Assembly (NCBI GenBank): GCA_017640785.1 | Contig: JAEPPZ010000002.1 | Location: forward strand, 219,748 to 283,747 | Direction: 5' to 3' | DNA length: 64,000 nucleotides | DNA from: Balneola sp. | GTDB taxonomy: Bacteria > Bacteroidota > Rhodothermia > Balneolales > Balneolaceae | Shown here: positions 19,251 to 53,532 of the stretch, piece after piece | Layout: each line of letters opens with the position of its first letter | How positions within the stretch are numbered: position 1 is the stretch's first letter | Notes under the pieces: generated by a model | Seen by the model: the letters and a program-made list of their open reading frames with translations, nothing else | Told to the model about the DNA's origin: nothing | The model's database searches: none | Made by a program: the position numbers and the translations under genes

Positions 19251-19691
19251 TTAAGGAAGTTAAGGGTCATTTCATAAGATTCTAAGGTAAGATGAGTATT
19301 TGATAAGTTAATTATTTTGTTAACAATTTTAGTATTGATAGTTCAAAAAAACTGCACTTAGTATTTAAGACGGAGAAGAGAGCATTATGCGTATGCGTCT
19401 ACGGAGCAGGAATAATTCCTTAAAATGAGGAGCTTAGAAAATATATCTAAAAGAACAAAGATCTTTGGAATTATTCAGCGTAGAGTCAGTGAACCTGTGT
19501 TAAATACTAAGGGCATACTTATTTCAGCAATATTAAAACTCTAAACGCTGGTTGATGGACTGGATATTCAACTAGAAATGAACCTCGCGAAGATCCTGAA
19601 ACAAGTTCAGGATGACCTATTAATGTAATTTTGTGTTTATCAAAAAGGTTCTGACATGAAATAATCAGCATCAAAAAAATACAATCAAAAC
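19251..19691. repeat. Gene-free region with degraded REP fragment and a solitary ATCCTGAA hairpin
   Basis: No supported coding sequence. AT-rich DNA before folC (19261-19345) probably carries its promoter. At 19370-19400 the string ACGGAGCAGGAAT resembles one arm of the hairpin doublet at 13892-13905. At 19593-19613 there is a perfect 8-bp stem (ATCCTGAA/TTCAGGAT) with loop ACAAG, followed by GACC. It belongs to the same repeat type as the elements at 50261 and 50674. Confidence 0.6.
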
Positions 19692-48726: not shown

Positions 48727-50217
48727 CTATTCTGATTTTTTTTTGATACGCCAATATACGTTGATACCACTTAAAGTTACGCCCGGAATTCCTTGTCCGG
48801 GATAAGTTGTATCGCCCACAAGATATAATCCTGAGAATGGCGTTTGGTTTGGTGTCCATTTAAGCAAGCTGCGTGCCATGCTTTGCGGGATACCACCAAC
48901 CCTGCCTTTTTTGCGGTATACCCAATTTTGCCACGTAATGGGAGTAGCCGTATGAATTGTTTCGATATCACTTTGTTCAAAACCCGGTAGTTTCTGTTTT
49001 AGTGCTTCAACTATAAACTCTTCCGTTTGTTTCTTAGCAGATGCATAATCACCATTTAATGAAAACCAATATTCGGGTGAAGCGTGACATGATATATTGA
49101 GCGTTCGTTTTCCATCCGGAGCTCGTTCGACATCTCCTCTTCTTGACATAGATACAAATATCGAATCTGAATTTGTAAACGGAACAGTATCTCCTTCTTC
49201 CAAATGAATTTGATGGTGTAAACTCATTTCATTGGGATAAGTATCCGTGGTTGCAATGCCTAATGTTACCGCTCCCCACGCTTCATCAAAATCTTCAGAT
49301 TCTTCTACAAAATACTCTTTCATTTCTGATGAAGTTATGTCTTTCATATTCCATATCGGGATGTTGGAAACCACGATCGGAGCTTGGTAAATATTTCCTT
49401 TTTTGGTTTGAATGATGAACTCTTCTTCTTTTTTACTCAGATGAGTAACTGCTTCTCGAGTATGAAGTGCCCCTCCTTTTTCCTGAATAAAACTTCGGAT
49501 GGAGTTGATCATTTCCAACAATCCACCGGGTACATAAAAGTTAGAATAATTGGTATAGGTCAAACCGGCTGCACCAAATAAAAACGGTGTGTCTTCTGCT
49601 TTGGATTGAGCTGTGATCATTAACTGTTCGTCTACAAACCGACGAAACTTAGGTGTATCCACACCGAACTTTCTCATCACATCCTCAACCGACTGAATTG
49701 CATAAGGTAACACCCAAACATCTAAGGGAGAATTTGAGATCGCCAGTCTTCCCCAATCGGTTATATTCTGCGGTGGGAAAAAGGGATTTTTGAGTGATAC
49801 ATCCCAAACGGTATCAGAGACTTTTAACGCTTCTTCCCAGAATGCTTGTTGTGCCTGAGGATTTCCAAAAACTCGTCCGGCTTCTTCTATCCATTCTTCC
49901 CGATCTTTATACCGGATTATCTCCTCCCCATCTAATCGAACTGTCATGCTTGGAGTGATCTCTTCTCTTGGAATCTGAATTCCAGTTTCTTTCTCCAGTT
50001 TCCACAATGGTTGATTTTCATCAAATCCGATAAGTGTAGTCGCACCCGACTCAAACGTGAATCCCTTTCGGTAATACGATGAACTGCATCCGCCCGGAAC
50101 TGCCGCGGCTTCCAGGATCAACACTTTGTATCCGTCGTTGGCAAGCATCGCCCCTGCACTCATTCCACCCATTCCCGAGCCAATAATAATTACGTCGTAG
50201 TCTTTTTTGATAGTCAT
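48727..50217 (-). CDS. FAD-dependent oxidoreductase of the carotenoid desaturase/isomerase family
   Basis: About 496 residues from the ATG at 50217 (MTIKKDYDVIIIG). An upstream ATG at 50268 would add 17 residues rich in Cys/Asn that precede the FAD-binding strand and lie in repeat DNA, so I reject it. The Rossmann motif is GSGMGG, followed by PGGCSSSYYRKGFTFESGA. The C-terminal LVGDTTYPGQGIPGVTLSG is typical of CrtI/CrtISO/CrtD-type enzymes. A role in carotenoid desaturation or isomerisation fits the nearby isoprenoid gene ispG, but no other crt gene is visible, so substrate is unknown. Confidence 0.82.
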   Translation of the reverse strand: MTIKKDYDVIIIGSGMGGMSAGAMLANDGYKVLILEAAAVPGGCSSSYYRKGFTFESGATTLIGFDENQPLWKLEKETGIQIPREEITPSMTVRLDGEEIIRYKDREEWIEEAGRVFGNPQAQQAFWEEALKVSDTVWDVSLKNPFFPPQNITDWGRLAISNSPLDVWVLPYAIQSVEDVMRKFGVDTPKFRRFVDEQLMITAQSKAEDTPFLFGAAGLTYTNYSNFYVPGGLLEMINSIRSFIQEKGGALHTREAVTHLSKKEEEFIIQTKKGNIYQAPIVVSNIPIWNMKDITSSEMKEYFVEESEDFDEAWGAVTLGIATTDTYPNEMSLHHQIHLEEGDTVPFTNSDSIFVSMSRRGDVERAPDGKRTLNISCHASPEYWFSLNGDYASAKKQTEEFIVEALKQKLPGFEQSDIETIHTATPITWQNWVYRKKGRVGGIPQSMARSLLKWTPNQTPFSGLYLVGDTTYPGQGIPGVTLSGINVYWRIKKKSE

Positions 50218-50260
50218 GGATGCAGAACAACAATTATTAGCTAAAGTGTTCCATTTAATT

Positions 50261-50313
50261 GACGTCATCCTGAACCATGTGCTGAACTTGATTCAGTATT
50301 GTTTCAGGGTCTT
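50261..50313. repeat. ATCCTGAA-type palindromic repeat, left of the GIY-YIG gene
   Basis: Starts GACGTCATCCTGAA, contains a small inner hairpin (CTGAA-CTTGA-TTCAG) and ends GTTTCAGGGTCT, which pairs imperfectly with the start. It is the inverted counterpart of 50674-50700. Confidence 0.65.
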
Positions 50314-50344
50314 ATGAGCTACCTCATATCTATGAATCAATAAT

Positions 50345-50635
50345 TCAACCTCTTAAAGTCTCATACCAATCTTCCAGCTTTGGATTGTGTTGCTTTACCA
50401 AATTCCATTTCCATTCTTTATGCCAATTCTTTAATTGCTTTTCGCGATCAATGGCATCCACTATTGAATCGAACTCTTCTGCATAAACCAGAATAGTTAG
50501 CTTATACTTTGAATTGAACTCTGATCCTTTTCCTTGCTTATGCTCCCAGATTCTTCTTGCAAGATTTGAAGTAAACCCTATATAAAGTGTAGTTCTTTGA
50601 AAGTTAGTAAGAAAATATACATAGCCTTTGCTCAT
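50345..50635 (-). CDS. Small stand-alone GIY-YIG nuclease
   Basis: About 96 residues from the ATG at 50635 (MSKGYVYFLTN). The two halves of the family motif are GYVYFL and LYIGFTS, followed by the conserved Arg (NLARRIWEH), a Glu region (YAEEF), and the terminal REKQLKNWHKEWK helix. It is the URI/YhbQ-like single-domain type whose function is poorly known. Inverted copies of a palindromic repeat frame the gene at 50261-50313 and 50674-50700, so the unit of about 440 bp looks like a cassette inserted between polA and the carotenoid gene. Confidence 0.88.
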   Translation of the reverse strand: MSKGYVYFLTNFQRTTLYIGFTSNLARRIWEHKQGKGSEFNSKYKLTILVYAEEFDSIVDAIDREKQLKNWHKEWKWNLVKQHNPKLEDWYETLRG

Positions 50636-50673
50636 GCTTAGTAAGACAGATTGGACTACCATTCCTTACAAAG

Positions 50674-50700
50674 ATCCCGAAATAAATTCGGGATGACGTC
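50674..50700. repeat. ATCCCGAA-type palindromic repeat, right of the GIY-YIG gene
   Basis: A perfect 8-bp stem (ATCCCGAA/TTCGGGAT, loop ATAAA, 50674-50694) followed by GACGTC. The end TTCGGGATGACGTC is the reverse complement of the left repeat's start with one mismatch in 14. Confidence 0.68.
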
Positions 50701-50781
50701 CTTTTTGGGTCATGAATTTGTAAATCAGAATTATTACTAATTGAAAAATTCTTAATTCTTCATTGAGCCATTCTTAATTGA

Positions 50782-53532
50782 TCAATGCGCTTCCAGCCAA
50801 TTCTCTCCAATCCCCGCTTCAACTTTTAACGGAACATCCATCTCAAACGCCGATTCCATCAATTCTTCGATCTTCTTCGGAACTTCATCCAGTTCGCTTT
50901 CATGGATCTCAAAGATCAGTTCATCATGAACCTGAAGTAACATCCGGCTTTTTTTGTTGTTGTCTTTCAGCCAGTTGTGGATATTGATCATCGCCAGCTT
51001 TATCACATCTGCAGCCGTTCCCTGAATAGGCATATTGATCGCTACACGTTCAGCGAAACCACGGACATTCCAGTTTCCTGAATTGATATCCGGCACATAC
51101 CGACGTCTTCCGATCAATGTTTTCACATAACCATGTTCTTTGGCAAACTGTTTGGTGTCATTGATGTAATTCAGAATATTCGGAAATCTCTCGAAATACT
51201 CATCGATCATTTCCTTCCCTTCGGAATTTTCGATGCCGAGATTTTGAGCCAATCCATATGCACTTAATCCGTAAGGAATTCCAAAATTCACTTCTTTCGC
51301 TTTACGCCTGTGATCAGCAGTTACATCATCCAGTGAATCTAAGTGAAAGATCTCCTTAGCTGTTCTGGAGTGAATGTCTTCTCCGTTTTTAAACGCTTCT
51401 ATCATCGCTTCATCTTTAGCGATATGAGCGATCACCCTCAGTTCAACCTGCGAATAATCCGCAGACATCATTTTAAATCCTTCATCAGCAATAAATGCTT
51501 TCCTGATCTCACGACCTCGCTTTGTTCTGATCGGAATATTCTGAAGATTCGGATTGGAAGATGAAAGTCGACCGGTTGCCGCAACACTTTGATTGAAATC
51601 TGTATGAATTCTTCCGGTTGTTTCGTCAACAATGGAAGGCAAAGCATCTACATAAGTAGATTTTAGTTTCGCCAACTGACGATATTCCAAAATCAGATCC
51701 GGCATTTCGTACTTCACAGCCAGTTTTGTCAACACCGATTCATTGGTAGAATACTGACCTGTTTTGGTTTTCTTTCCTGCCGGTAATCCCAGTTTATCAA
51801 ATAAAATGGTTCCCAACTGTTGCGGAGAATTGATATTAAACTCCTCTCCAGCCTTCTCATAGATCTGTTTCTCCAATTCTTTAAGATCCATTGCCAGATC
51901 TTCGGAAAACCCTTCCAGCATGCCAACATCCAGCTTTACTCCCTGATATTCGATCTCGGCAAGTACTTCCATCAACGGAAATTCCACTGTTTTCGCAACT
52001 TCATCCAATTCATCTTTGGTGAGCTGTTCGCTAAAGATCTCATACAATCGTAAAGTTATATCTGCATCTTCACACGCATACAAATACACTTCTTCAGGAG
52101 TCAGATCTGCCATGGAAATTTGTCGCTTTCCCTTTCCGATCAATGCTTCAATCGGAACAGGCTCATAATTCAGATACTTTTTCGACAGTTCATCCATCTT
52201 GATCTTTTGAGTTGCATCAATGAGATATGCAGCGATCATGGTATCAAATGGCTTTCCTTTGATCTGAATTCCTGCTCGATGGAGAATCAGCCAATCGAAC
52301 TTATAGTTATGTGCCACAAGGGTTTTACTTTCATCTTCAAACAACGGACGAATAACTTCCACCACTTCTTTTTCATCCAAAGCTCCTTCAACATTTACAG
52401 GAATATAAAACCCCATTCCGGGCTTGGCTGAAAATGAAAATCCTACCAATGAAGCCGAAACAGGATTCGGAGAATTTGTCTCTGTATCAAAACAGATCAC
52501 GGACTCTTTCTTTAGATCCTCAACAAGCTTTTTAACCCCATCTATGTCTTTGATCAGCTCATATGCATTCTTTTCTTCGTCGAGCTTTTCAATCGGTTCT
52601 TCTTCAACAAAAGTCCCGAAAAGATCTCCCTGACCACCTGCTTTATTTTCGATGGGCTCTTCGCCTAAATATCTCTTTGTCAGAGTTCTGAACTCCATTC
52701 TTTTGAAAAAAGCTCCCAGATCATTCTTATTGGGGCCATTCCATTCCAACTCTTCCCATTCGACCGTATTTGGCACATCCGTTTTGATGGTAACCATGAA
52801 TTTGGCATGCATCGCCTGATCTGCAAATTCCTGTAATCCCTCACGCTGTCTTTTTGCGGAAATGGTGTCCGCTTTGGCGATGGCTTCTTCCAAAGAACCA
52901 AATTCATTGATCAGTTTAGGAGCTCCTTTCTTTCCGATGCCCGGAACTCCCGGTATGTTATCTGAAGCATCACCGATTATTGCCAGCACATCGATTACCT
53001 GATCCGGATACACTCCGAAATAATCATGTACTCCTTCTCTGTCGATAATATTAAATCCGCCGTCTTTGTTATCGGGTTTCATCATTCTCACATGATCGTG
53101 CACCAATTGCATAAAATCCTTATCAGGAGTAACCAGATACACATCCACATCATCTGCATTTGCACCTGAAGCAATGGTTCCGATGATATCATCAGCCTCA
53201 TAACCATCCTGCTCAATATTCTTGATTCCCCAATTCTCTACCATTTCCTTGATCAGAGGAATTCCCACTTTTAGTTCATCAGGCTGTGGTGGCCGTTGAG
53301 CTTTGTAGGTTTCGTCGGCATCATGACGGAATGTAGCAGCTTTGGTATCCCAGGCAACGGCAATGTGTGTAGGTTTTTCTTCGTCCAGCATACGAACCAA
53401 TGTGTTCGCGAATCCAAGCACAGGACCGGTGGCTATTCCTTCAGAATTTTTAAGTCGAGAATTAACAAATGCGAAATGAGCACGATAAGCCAGTGCCATC
53501 CCATCAAGTAAAAAAAGAAGTTTCTTTGACAT
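50782..53532 (-). CDS. polA: DNA polymerase I
   Basis: The 916-residue enzyme has all three domains. The 5'-3' flap nuclease (1-290) has LLFLLDGMALAYRAHF, DGYEADDIIG, TPDKDFMQL and GDASDNIPG with a helix-hairpin-helix. The 3'-5' proofreading domain (about 330-520) keeps its acidic residues (CFDTETN, ACEDADITLR). The polymerase domain has motif A DYSQVELRV, motif B RRKAKEVNFGIPYG and motif C VHDELIFE. It works in Okazaki-fragment maturation and excision repair. Proofreading appears active, unlike in Taq-type enzymes. Confidence 0.97.
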   Translation of the reverse strand: MSKKLLFLLDGMALAYRAHFAFVNSRLKNSEGIATGPVLGFANTLVRMLDEEKPTHIAVAWDTKAATFRHDADETYKAQRPPQPDELKVGIPLIKEMVENWGIKNIEQDGYEADDIIGTIASGANADDVDVYLVTPDKDFMQLVHDHVRMMKPDNKDGGFNIIDREGVHDYFGVYPDQVIDVLAIIGDASDNIPGVPGIGKKGAPKLINEFGSLEEAIAKADTISAKRQREGLQEFADQAMHAKFMVTIKTDVPNTVEWEELEWNGPNKNDLGAFFKRMEFRTLTKRYLGEEPIENKAGGQGDLFGTFVEEEPIEKLDEEKNAYELIKDIDGVKKLVEDLKKESVICFDTETNSPNPVSASLVGFSFSAKPGMGFYIPVNVEGALDEKEVVEVIRPLFEDESKTLVAHNYKFDWLILHRAGIQIKGKPFDTMIAAYLIDATQKIKMDELSKKYLNYEPVPIEALIGKGKRQISMADLTPEEVYLYACEDADITLRLYEIFSEQLTKDELDEVAKTVEFPLMEVLAEIEYQGVKLDVGMLEGFSEDLAMDLKELEKQIYEKAGEEFNINSPQQLGTILFDKLGLPAGKKTKTGQYSTNESVLTKLAVKYEMPDLILEYRQLAKLKSTYVDALPSIVDETTGRIHTDFNQSVAATGRLSSSNPNLQNIPIRTKRGREIRKAFIADEGFKMMSADYSQVELRVIAHIAKDEAMIEAFKNGEDIHSRTAKEIFHLDSLDDVTADHRRKAKEVNFGIPYGLSAYGLAQNLGIENSEGKEMIDEYFERFPNILNYINDTKQFAKEHGYVKTLIGRRRYVPDINSGNWNVRGFAERVAINMPIQGTAADVIKLAMINIHNWLKDNNKKSRMLLQVHDELIFEIHESELDEVPKKIEELMESAFEMDVPLKVEAGIGENWLEAH

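Follow-up and report, generated by a model that had tools for sequence, protein, structure and literature searches.

A GIY-YIG nuclease gene between inverted CGTC-tagged REP hairpins in Balneola: a candidate nuclease-based counterpart of the RAYT/REP module

Is a small nuclease gene that lies between two inverted palindromes a chance neighbour of these repeats or their partner? The question is raised by a segment of the Balneola sp. genome (assembly GCA_017640785.1, contig JAEPPZ010000002.1), which we analysed within a stretch of 64,000 nucleotides, hereafter the window. As a previous sequence-only reading had claimed, the segment is bordered by inverted 14-mers, GACGTCATCCTGAA (50261-50274) and TTCGGGATGACGTC (50687-50700), with one difference in 14, and the GIY-YIG gene is the only ORF of at least 60 aa between them. 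The 14-mers are the outer parts of complete hairpins (Table 1), built at both ends on the same plan: GTC, an 8-bp stem starting with AT, a loop, the return stem and then C. ACGTC-AT is read in both hairpins and the tags face outward, and the gene together with these two CGTC-type REPs makes up a cassette of ~410 bp, in which the right REP starts 62 nt upstream of the ATG of the gene. The gene-less repeat which the same reading had placed at 19593-19613 is present as well, as a full hairpin with no GIY-YIG gene near it. This solitary REP sits within a longer dispersed repeat (window about 19500-19616) shared with C12:304738, which resembles its flank also beyond the hairpin, and seen again at L034 (loci, contigs and genomes are designated here by our own L, C and G numbers). 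A Rfam search of positions 50000-51000 gave nothing above the gathering score.

Table 1. Positions in the window of the cassette components and of the solitary repeat
Feature	Position	Strand	Basis
Left REP hairpin, tag GTC outward	50264..50311	+	sequence and hairpin scan
GIY-YIG nuclease gene, 96 aa	50345..50635	-	PF01541, E 8e-15
Leader between REP and gene, including the conserved tail CTTTGTAAGGAAT	50636..50672	-	common to cassettes L006, L007, L008, L010
Right REP hairpin GTC-ATCCCGAA-TTTAT-TTCGGGAT-C, tag outward	50673..50697	-	pattern search and hairpin scan
Solitary REP GTC-ATCCTGAA-CTTGT-TTCAGGAT-C, gene-less	19592..19616	-	pattern search and hairpin scan

The left REP, with the stem ATCCTGAA/TTCAGGGT, has an enlarged loop. 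Nested in this loop, in the window and also in genome G002, is a REP-like core, GCTGAACTTGATTCAG; the orthologue of the left REP in G007 has a plain CTTGT loop, and this difference suggests that REP cores may insert into the loops of other REPs.

Judged from its sequence, the repeat itself is already known. CGTC-tagged REPs were described as a superfamily by Di Nocera, De Gregorio and Rocco in 2013, in Bacteroidetes and in Neisseria (PMC3733652). According to the accessible parts of that survey, they carry a CGTC, TGTC or CCTC tag, an 8-9-bp stem starting with AT, a 4-5-nt loop and a short unpaired tail, in 'most' cases CCA; HH dimers predominate, the Neisseria CGTC-1 repeat is equated with dRS3, and the elements 'apparently lack a dedicated transposase' (PMC3733652). 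Compared with this description, the window hairpins share the CGTC tag, and the right and the solitary repeats share also the 8-bp stem from AT and the 5-nt loop, whereas the left loop is enlarged and the tail differs, being CTT in the Balneola copies and CCA or CCAG in Proteobacterial copies. In the same parts of the survey the repeats stand without an enzyme, whereas here a clade of GIY-YIG genes adjoins them.

Sequence and structure prediction place the product of the window gene in the GIY-YIG nuclease superfamily. The ORF comprises 105 aa from the first ATG (50345-50662), and the 96 aa of Table 1 are counted from the ATG conserved in relatives. Its conserved residues are Y7, Y18, G20, R28, E65 and N84; Y7, Y18, R28 and E65, which are invariant among 16 sequences, correspond to the GIY tyrosine, the YIG tyrosine, the arginine and the glutamate that have catalytic roles in GIY-YIG nucleases. 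The AlphaFold2 model (pLDDT 89.4) finds its best PDB match in a UPF0213 protein, followed by the GIY-YIG fold of Slx1. The protein is thus similar in fold and length to the small UPF0213 or YhbQ-like GIY-YIG proteins (PDB 1zg2, 1ywl), from which it differs in sequence (28% identity in the 1zg2 fold match), and the match of the gene to TIGR01453 is far below cut-off. The closest named matches of the cassette proteins belong to Balneolaceae UBA3186 and Balneola sp. EhC07. Relatives at less than 60% identity were found in 33 of 72,556 plasmid records, and none in 50,697 phage records.

The 3.39-Mb host genome contains a population of these repeats. With up to 2 mismatches, the pattern GTCATCCYGAAN5TTCRGGATC occurs at 60 distinct places, leaving out overlapping duplicates of perfect palindromes and 3-mismatch rows; the reversed pattern, even with up to 3 mismatches, occurs at none. 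Counting the copies and their adjacency to GIY-YIG genes was the check proposed by the sequence-only reading, and the result agrees with it: 8 of the 60 repeats lie within 250 bp of one of the 13 PF01541 genes, against an expected 0.11, or about 1 if all repeats are taken as intergenic. Four of these genes (L006, L007, L008 and L010) each stand between two outward-tagged REPs of the CCYGA type, that is, the type of the window, as does a truncated cassette copy on contig 10 (C10). L003 has REPs on both sides, one of the window type and one of a related type, in mixed orientation, and L011 is flanked by two REPs of a different stem type. The fetched flanks of L005, L009 and L013, other GIY-YIG genes of the host, contain no GTCAYNSYGAR motif.

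The association was measured around 148 clade genes from Balneolota, other Bacteroidota-level relatives and 26 named loci, retained from 167 after the removal of duplicates by gene and flank. The fetched DNA included 30 loci and 60 further stretches, some of them from genera of the same family, and contig-edge matches as well as part of the listed phylum matches were left out. We adopted a count of the GTCAYNSYGAR motif with shuffled motifs and intergenic DNA as controls; a strict hairpin scan missed the long-loop types GTCATTGCGAG and GTCATTCTGAG. These two classes were recognised from flanks within the same sample, and the GTCAT tag and the Balneola stem earlier, from other loci. Up to 250 bp from the 148 genes the motif was counted 220 times, compared with 31 times in three bins at 750-1500 bp, and shuffled motifs near the gene give a mean of 0.7. 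After masking of coding DNA, 195 motifs remain in the 49.8 kb within 250 bp of a gene (3.91 per kb) and 39 in the 56.0 kb lying more than 500 bp away (0.70 per kb), i.e., the repeats are 5.6-fold denser beside the clade than in intergenic DNA further off at the same loci. The later-fetched loci alone (L168 on, some from genera of the same family) give a comparable picture, with 3.70 per kb near (109 in 29.5 kb) and 0.66 per kb far (21 in 31.6 kb). Within 250 bp, both flanks carry the motif in 62 genes, a single flank in 25 and neither in 61, some of the latter carrying other tagged stems. Among the 69 genes whose flanks could be classed, 58 have one and the same repeat class on both sides, compared with a mean of 15.5 and a maximum of 25 in 1000 shuffles. 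The sequence-only reading had made its proposal depend on an enrichment beyond the intergenic background; such an enrichment exists, and it is confined to one clade of GIY-YIG genes. Intergenic repeats of the form GTCATTGCGAGG...GCAATC and GTCATTCTGAG...AGAATC were seen to flank the family genes L062, L065, L067, L185, L188, L200 and L206, which suggests a common explanation for both.

These values bear on the simplest alternative, a passive association in which REPs gather in any intergenic gap, or serve as terminators, and a small gene merely offers two such gaps. REPs are intergenic and numerous, and the far intergenic DNA has its own background of 0.70 per kb. However, the excess over intergenic DNA of the very same loci and the agreement in class between the two flanks mean that passive association fails as the sole explanation; together with the fixed -62 position and the bare flanks of distant GIY-YIG genes (see below), they leave it hardly credible.

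Close to the genes, the tagged sequences form hairpins. With a 5-nt loop, at least 7 of 8 pairs are formed by 86 of 717 GTCA occurrences near genes, compared with 6 of 2029 far away; with a 4-nt loop, 37 of 717 and 9 of 2029 pair, respectively. A C directly follows the stem in all 86 cases (86/86). The stem is conserved by compensatory change: of 34 distinct stems with a 5-nt loop, 15 have C-G as their third pair, 13 have G-C, 2 A-T and 2 T-A, and pairs 2, 5 and 7 switch as well. Since the choice of stems itself required at least 7 of 8 pairs, the contrast between near and far DNA is fairer evidence than this covariation. In addition, the repeat class agrees with the phylogeny of the neighbouring protein, requiring 25 changes on a tree of 140 proteins (those shorter than 75 aa left out, genes with disagreeing flank classes unlabelled) versus 47.1 after shuffling (minimum 42, 200 shuffles). 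When labels were shuffled within genomes only, a comparison of low power with 5 informative genomes, 47 of 500 shuffles were as low; the agreement is then weak, and compatible also with co-inheritance of repeat and gene with the species.

The behaviour of the cassette looks mobile, as it is found at unrelated loci, its homology ends at the tag, and there are dimers, decayed copies and orthologous sites at which some genomes have the gene and others lack it. In 12 of 17 comparisons between the window cassette and cassettes elsewhere (excluding two orthologues of the window site), homology ends at -62/-63 from the ATG, at the G of the GTC tag; the comparisons with L006, L007, L053, L076, L077 and others end at the REP tag, mostly at -61 to -64. 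Neighbouring REPs up to 600 bp apart are oriented tag-outward in 15/18, 21/25 and 9/14 cases in three genomes, so that, taking outward-tagged pairs as HH, outward dimers predominate here as in the accessible part of the 2013 survey. Their spacing peaks at 81-83, corresponding to dimers without the gene, and at 382-397, with the gene present. The gene-less pairs of hairpins are ~107 bp long with fixed spacing, and between dimers from different loci the best matches mostly reach a similarity of 75-80%. Copies that bear stops or are fragments are common, and matches at E <= 1e-12 number 2-10 per genome in eight genomes of the genus, fragments and distant paralogues included. In separate cases (L167, L078, L079) the tags face the gene instead of pointing outward, with hairpins of a similar class, and L192, L230, L247, L171 and L308 are runs of two or three adjacent family genes or remnants.

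Sites with and without the gene can be compared directly in two instances. Downstream of polA, the cassette is present in G002 and G007 and absent from G004, which reads AAGGATGAAGTCATTT where the others have AAGGAC-cassette-GTCATTT. The gene-less allele of G004 can be a deletion through AGGA as well as a nearly empty site that was never filled. This polA site was the one clear presence/absence difference when 362 kb of the host's own C11 were compared with 400 kb of G002 and 100 kb of G004. The place just downstream of polA is a recurrent landing site, with REPs there in another species and in another genus. At L105 (G003) and L108 (G012), the place of the window cassette is taken by other REPs, namely a symmetric palindrome and an outward dimer. 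The second instance comes from Sinorhizobium, where K101 has one symmetric REP and Ak57 has two REPs enclosing gene DNA. Both the polA and the Sinorhizobium sites fit gain by homing into a REP, and equally fit loss by recombination between stem arms.

In one cassette sub-lineage, the shared sequence extends further. L008, L010, L048, L050 and L051 have sequence in common to at most about -114 (some to -71) and +115 from the gene, and terminal inverted repeats CTTGTAGATGTTAGATAATTCGTTGACA of an outer element surround L008:1381-1905, L010, L023 (C10:1-411), L048, L050 and L051. Sharing beyond the REPs, by ~115 bp or less, together with these outer repeats suggests that another element may have moved this sub-lineage. 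Generalised to all cassettes, this would mean that REPs and gene travel as passengers of a larger mobile unit, a MITE or IS bounded by outer terminal inverted repeats (CTTGTAGATGTTAGATAATTC...). The inverted repeat near the limits of the shared sequence in these five loci is what such an element would leave, but the outer repeats are absent around most cassettes, and the other comparisons end at the REP tag, which confines the outer repeat to one sub-lineage. We therefore regard this explanation as improbable.

The sequence-only reading had proposed to look for the pairing in other phyla, and it does recur there, in Gammaproteobacteria, in Alphaproteobacteria and in Neisseria, whose repeat is of the dRS3 type. 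A second sample comprised 41 genes, taken from 29 further loci that a search of Kangiella's class had given, from the three genomes to which L062, L064 and L065 had led and from six named records. With coding DNA unmasked, tagged hairpins number 65 in the 19.9 kb up to 250 bp from the gene, versus 14 in the 80.0 kb beyond 500 bp. Short tagged hairpins are on both sides of 18 genes, on one side of 6 and absent from 17, i.e., 24/41 have at least one. Among the named cases, Sinorhizobium meliloti pSymB, Azospirillum lipoferum and Neisseria gonorrhoeae have such hairpins; the scan found none in Planktothrix and Novosphingobium. In the class of Kangiella, a family match at E 1e-20 is present in 39 of 185 genomes, and at least 5 REPs of one pattern occur in 20 of the 39 family-positive and in 21 of the 146 family-negative genomes (P 4e-6, ignoring shared ancestry). 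Co-occurrence among relatives was 9/1/3/25 (P 1e-5, again ignoring shared ancestry). At 1e-5, 14 of the 21 REP-rich family-negative genomes have only weak matches, distant GIY-YIG genes or contig-edge fragments, and 7 have none; genomes with no visible intact family gene can still retain REPs. In the DNA fetched around distant GIY-YIG loci of the 14 repeat-rich genomes, a tagged hairpin was found at 0/17, which ties the association to this particular clade rather than to GIY-YIG genes or REP-rich genomes at large. The recurrence of the pairing in other bacterial phyla suggests that the nuclease is probably a dedicated partner of the repeat.

What this partnership is for can be approached through Neisseria. 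A frame of N. gonorrhoeae matches the window protein with 39% identity (E 1e-13) and may be Ssn. Reportedly, in a study published in Nature Communications in 2025, the GIY-YIG protein Ssn of N. meningitidis was found to cut such a repeat in single-stranded DNA and to modulate transformation. Ssn and the window protein are alike in being short GIY-YIG proteins tied to a tagged palindromic repeat, and the Neisseria homologue has dRS3-type flanks; the Ssn work is said to focus on cleavage and transformation, whereas the present analysis concerns the anatomy of mobility and the link to CGTC REPs. To our knowledge, cassette mobility, REPIN-like dimers and the CGTC-REP link do not appear in it. These data give rise to the main alternative, a host function: by cutting repeats in single-stranded DNA, the nuclease would restrain or direct recombination or transformation, and the repeats would be kept as its sites and have been spread by something else. 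The CGTCATTCCCGCGCAGGCGGGAATC-type (dRS3-type) repeats on both sides of the N. gonorrhoeae family member L306, the identity of dRS3 with CGTC-1 noted above and the reported activity and transformation role of Ssn are in line with it. On the other hand, the copy number varies within the genus and some copies bear stops, the cassettes stand at unrelated sites, and in Azospirillum lipoferum the family gene lies inside an operon, between sufB and sufC, all of which point to selfish turnover rather than to a conserved host gene. We consider a host function as the full explanation unlikely, yet worth serious attention; it and selfish spread are not mutually exclusive.

We thus moderately favour the reading of the locus as a selfish module that resembles a REPtron, with a GIY-YIG nuclease in the place of the RAYT. 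In RAYT/REP systems the enzyme is an HUH Y1 tyrosine transposase, the tag is GTAG, and REPINs form the non-autonomous population. The sequence-only reading had drawn this parallel, and its anatomical part stands: as far as the RAYT/REP and REPIN arrangement is set out in the accessible part of PMC3116915, both systems have inverted REPs around the gene, a genome-wide population and inverted dimers of fixed spacing, to which the enrichment beside the gene is added here. They differ in enzyme, a GIY-YIG nuclease versus an HUH tyrosine transposase, and in tag, CGTC versus GTAG, and the comparison gave no support to the other part of the parallel, that the nuclease spreads the repeats. Perhaps it does so nonetheless. 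The nuclease would recognise the hairpin with its tag and cut beside it, the DNA being probably single-stranded at this point, as on the lagging strand, during repair or when it enters the cell. Repair from another copy would then transfer REPs, dimers or complete cassettes, in which the gene is copied along with the two REPs around it. The ~107-bp gene-less pairs would represent the non-autonomous population, as REPINs do for RAYTs. The proposed hairpin cleavage is suggested by the fold, the conserved catalytic residues and the reported activity of the Neisseria homologue, and the step from cleavage to spread by the anatomy. GIY-YIG homing endonucleases have a comparable arrangement, a catalytic domain encoded by a gene flanked by its presumed target, those of group I type lying inside a self-splicing intron. 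The present family resembles them in catalytic domain and flanking presumed target, but the target here would be a dispersed hairpin, and no intron or intein was seen.

A literature search, its scope set by licences, found nothing tying GIY-YIG nucleases to REPs, or this clade to CGTC REPs in general, and the available text of the 2006 GIY-YIG phylogenomics paper (PMC1564403) does not contain 'palindrom'. The sequence-only reading had expected a new kind of REP system. The type of repeat, as described above, is not new. Since cleavage by the Neisseria nuclease has reportedly been published, the pairing of enzyme and repeat may not be wholly new either; as far as could be checked, what is new is the REPIN-like anatomy and the tie, in several phyla, between this clade and CGTC REPs. 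More tentatively, and with slightly less than even confidence, we propose that this clade supplies the dedicated mobiliser that the CGTC REP superfamily as a whole has been missing, also for the widespread GTCATTGCGAGG, GTCATTCTGAG and dRS3 types. Besides RAYT/REP there would then be another REP-enzyme system of independent origin, present in several phyla, whose site-specific nuclease, rather than a transposase, multiplies REPs, REPIN-like dimers and the nuclease gene itself through cutting and repair.

REPs rank with the most common repeats of bacteria, and the 2013 survey named no enzyme for those with a CGTC tag. With a dedicated GIY-YIG partner, a single small protein and a single oligonucleotide would suffice to test how these repeats arose and spread, and REP populations would have a second, non-transposase route of formation. 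The family may also offer many paired nuclease-hairpin specificities for single-stranded DNA tools.
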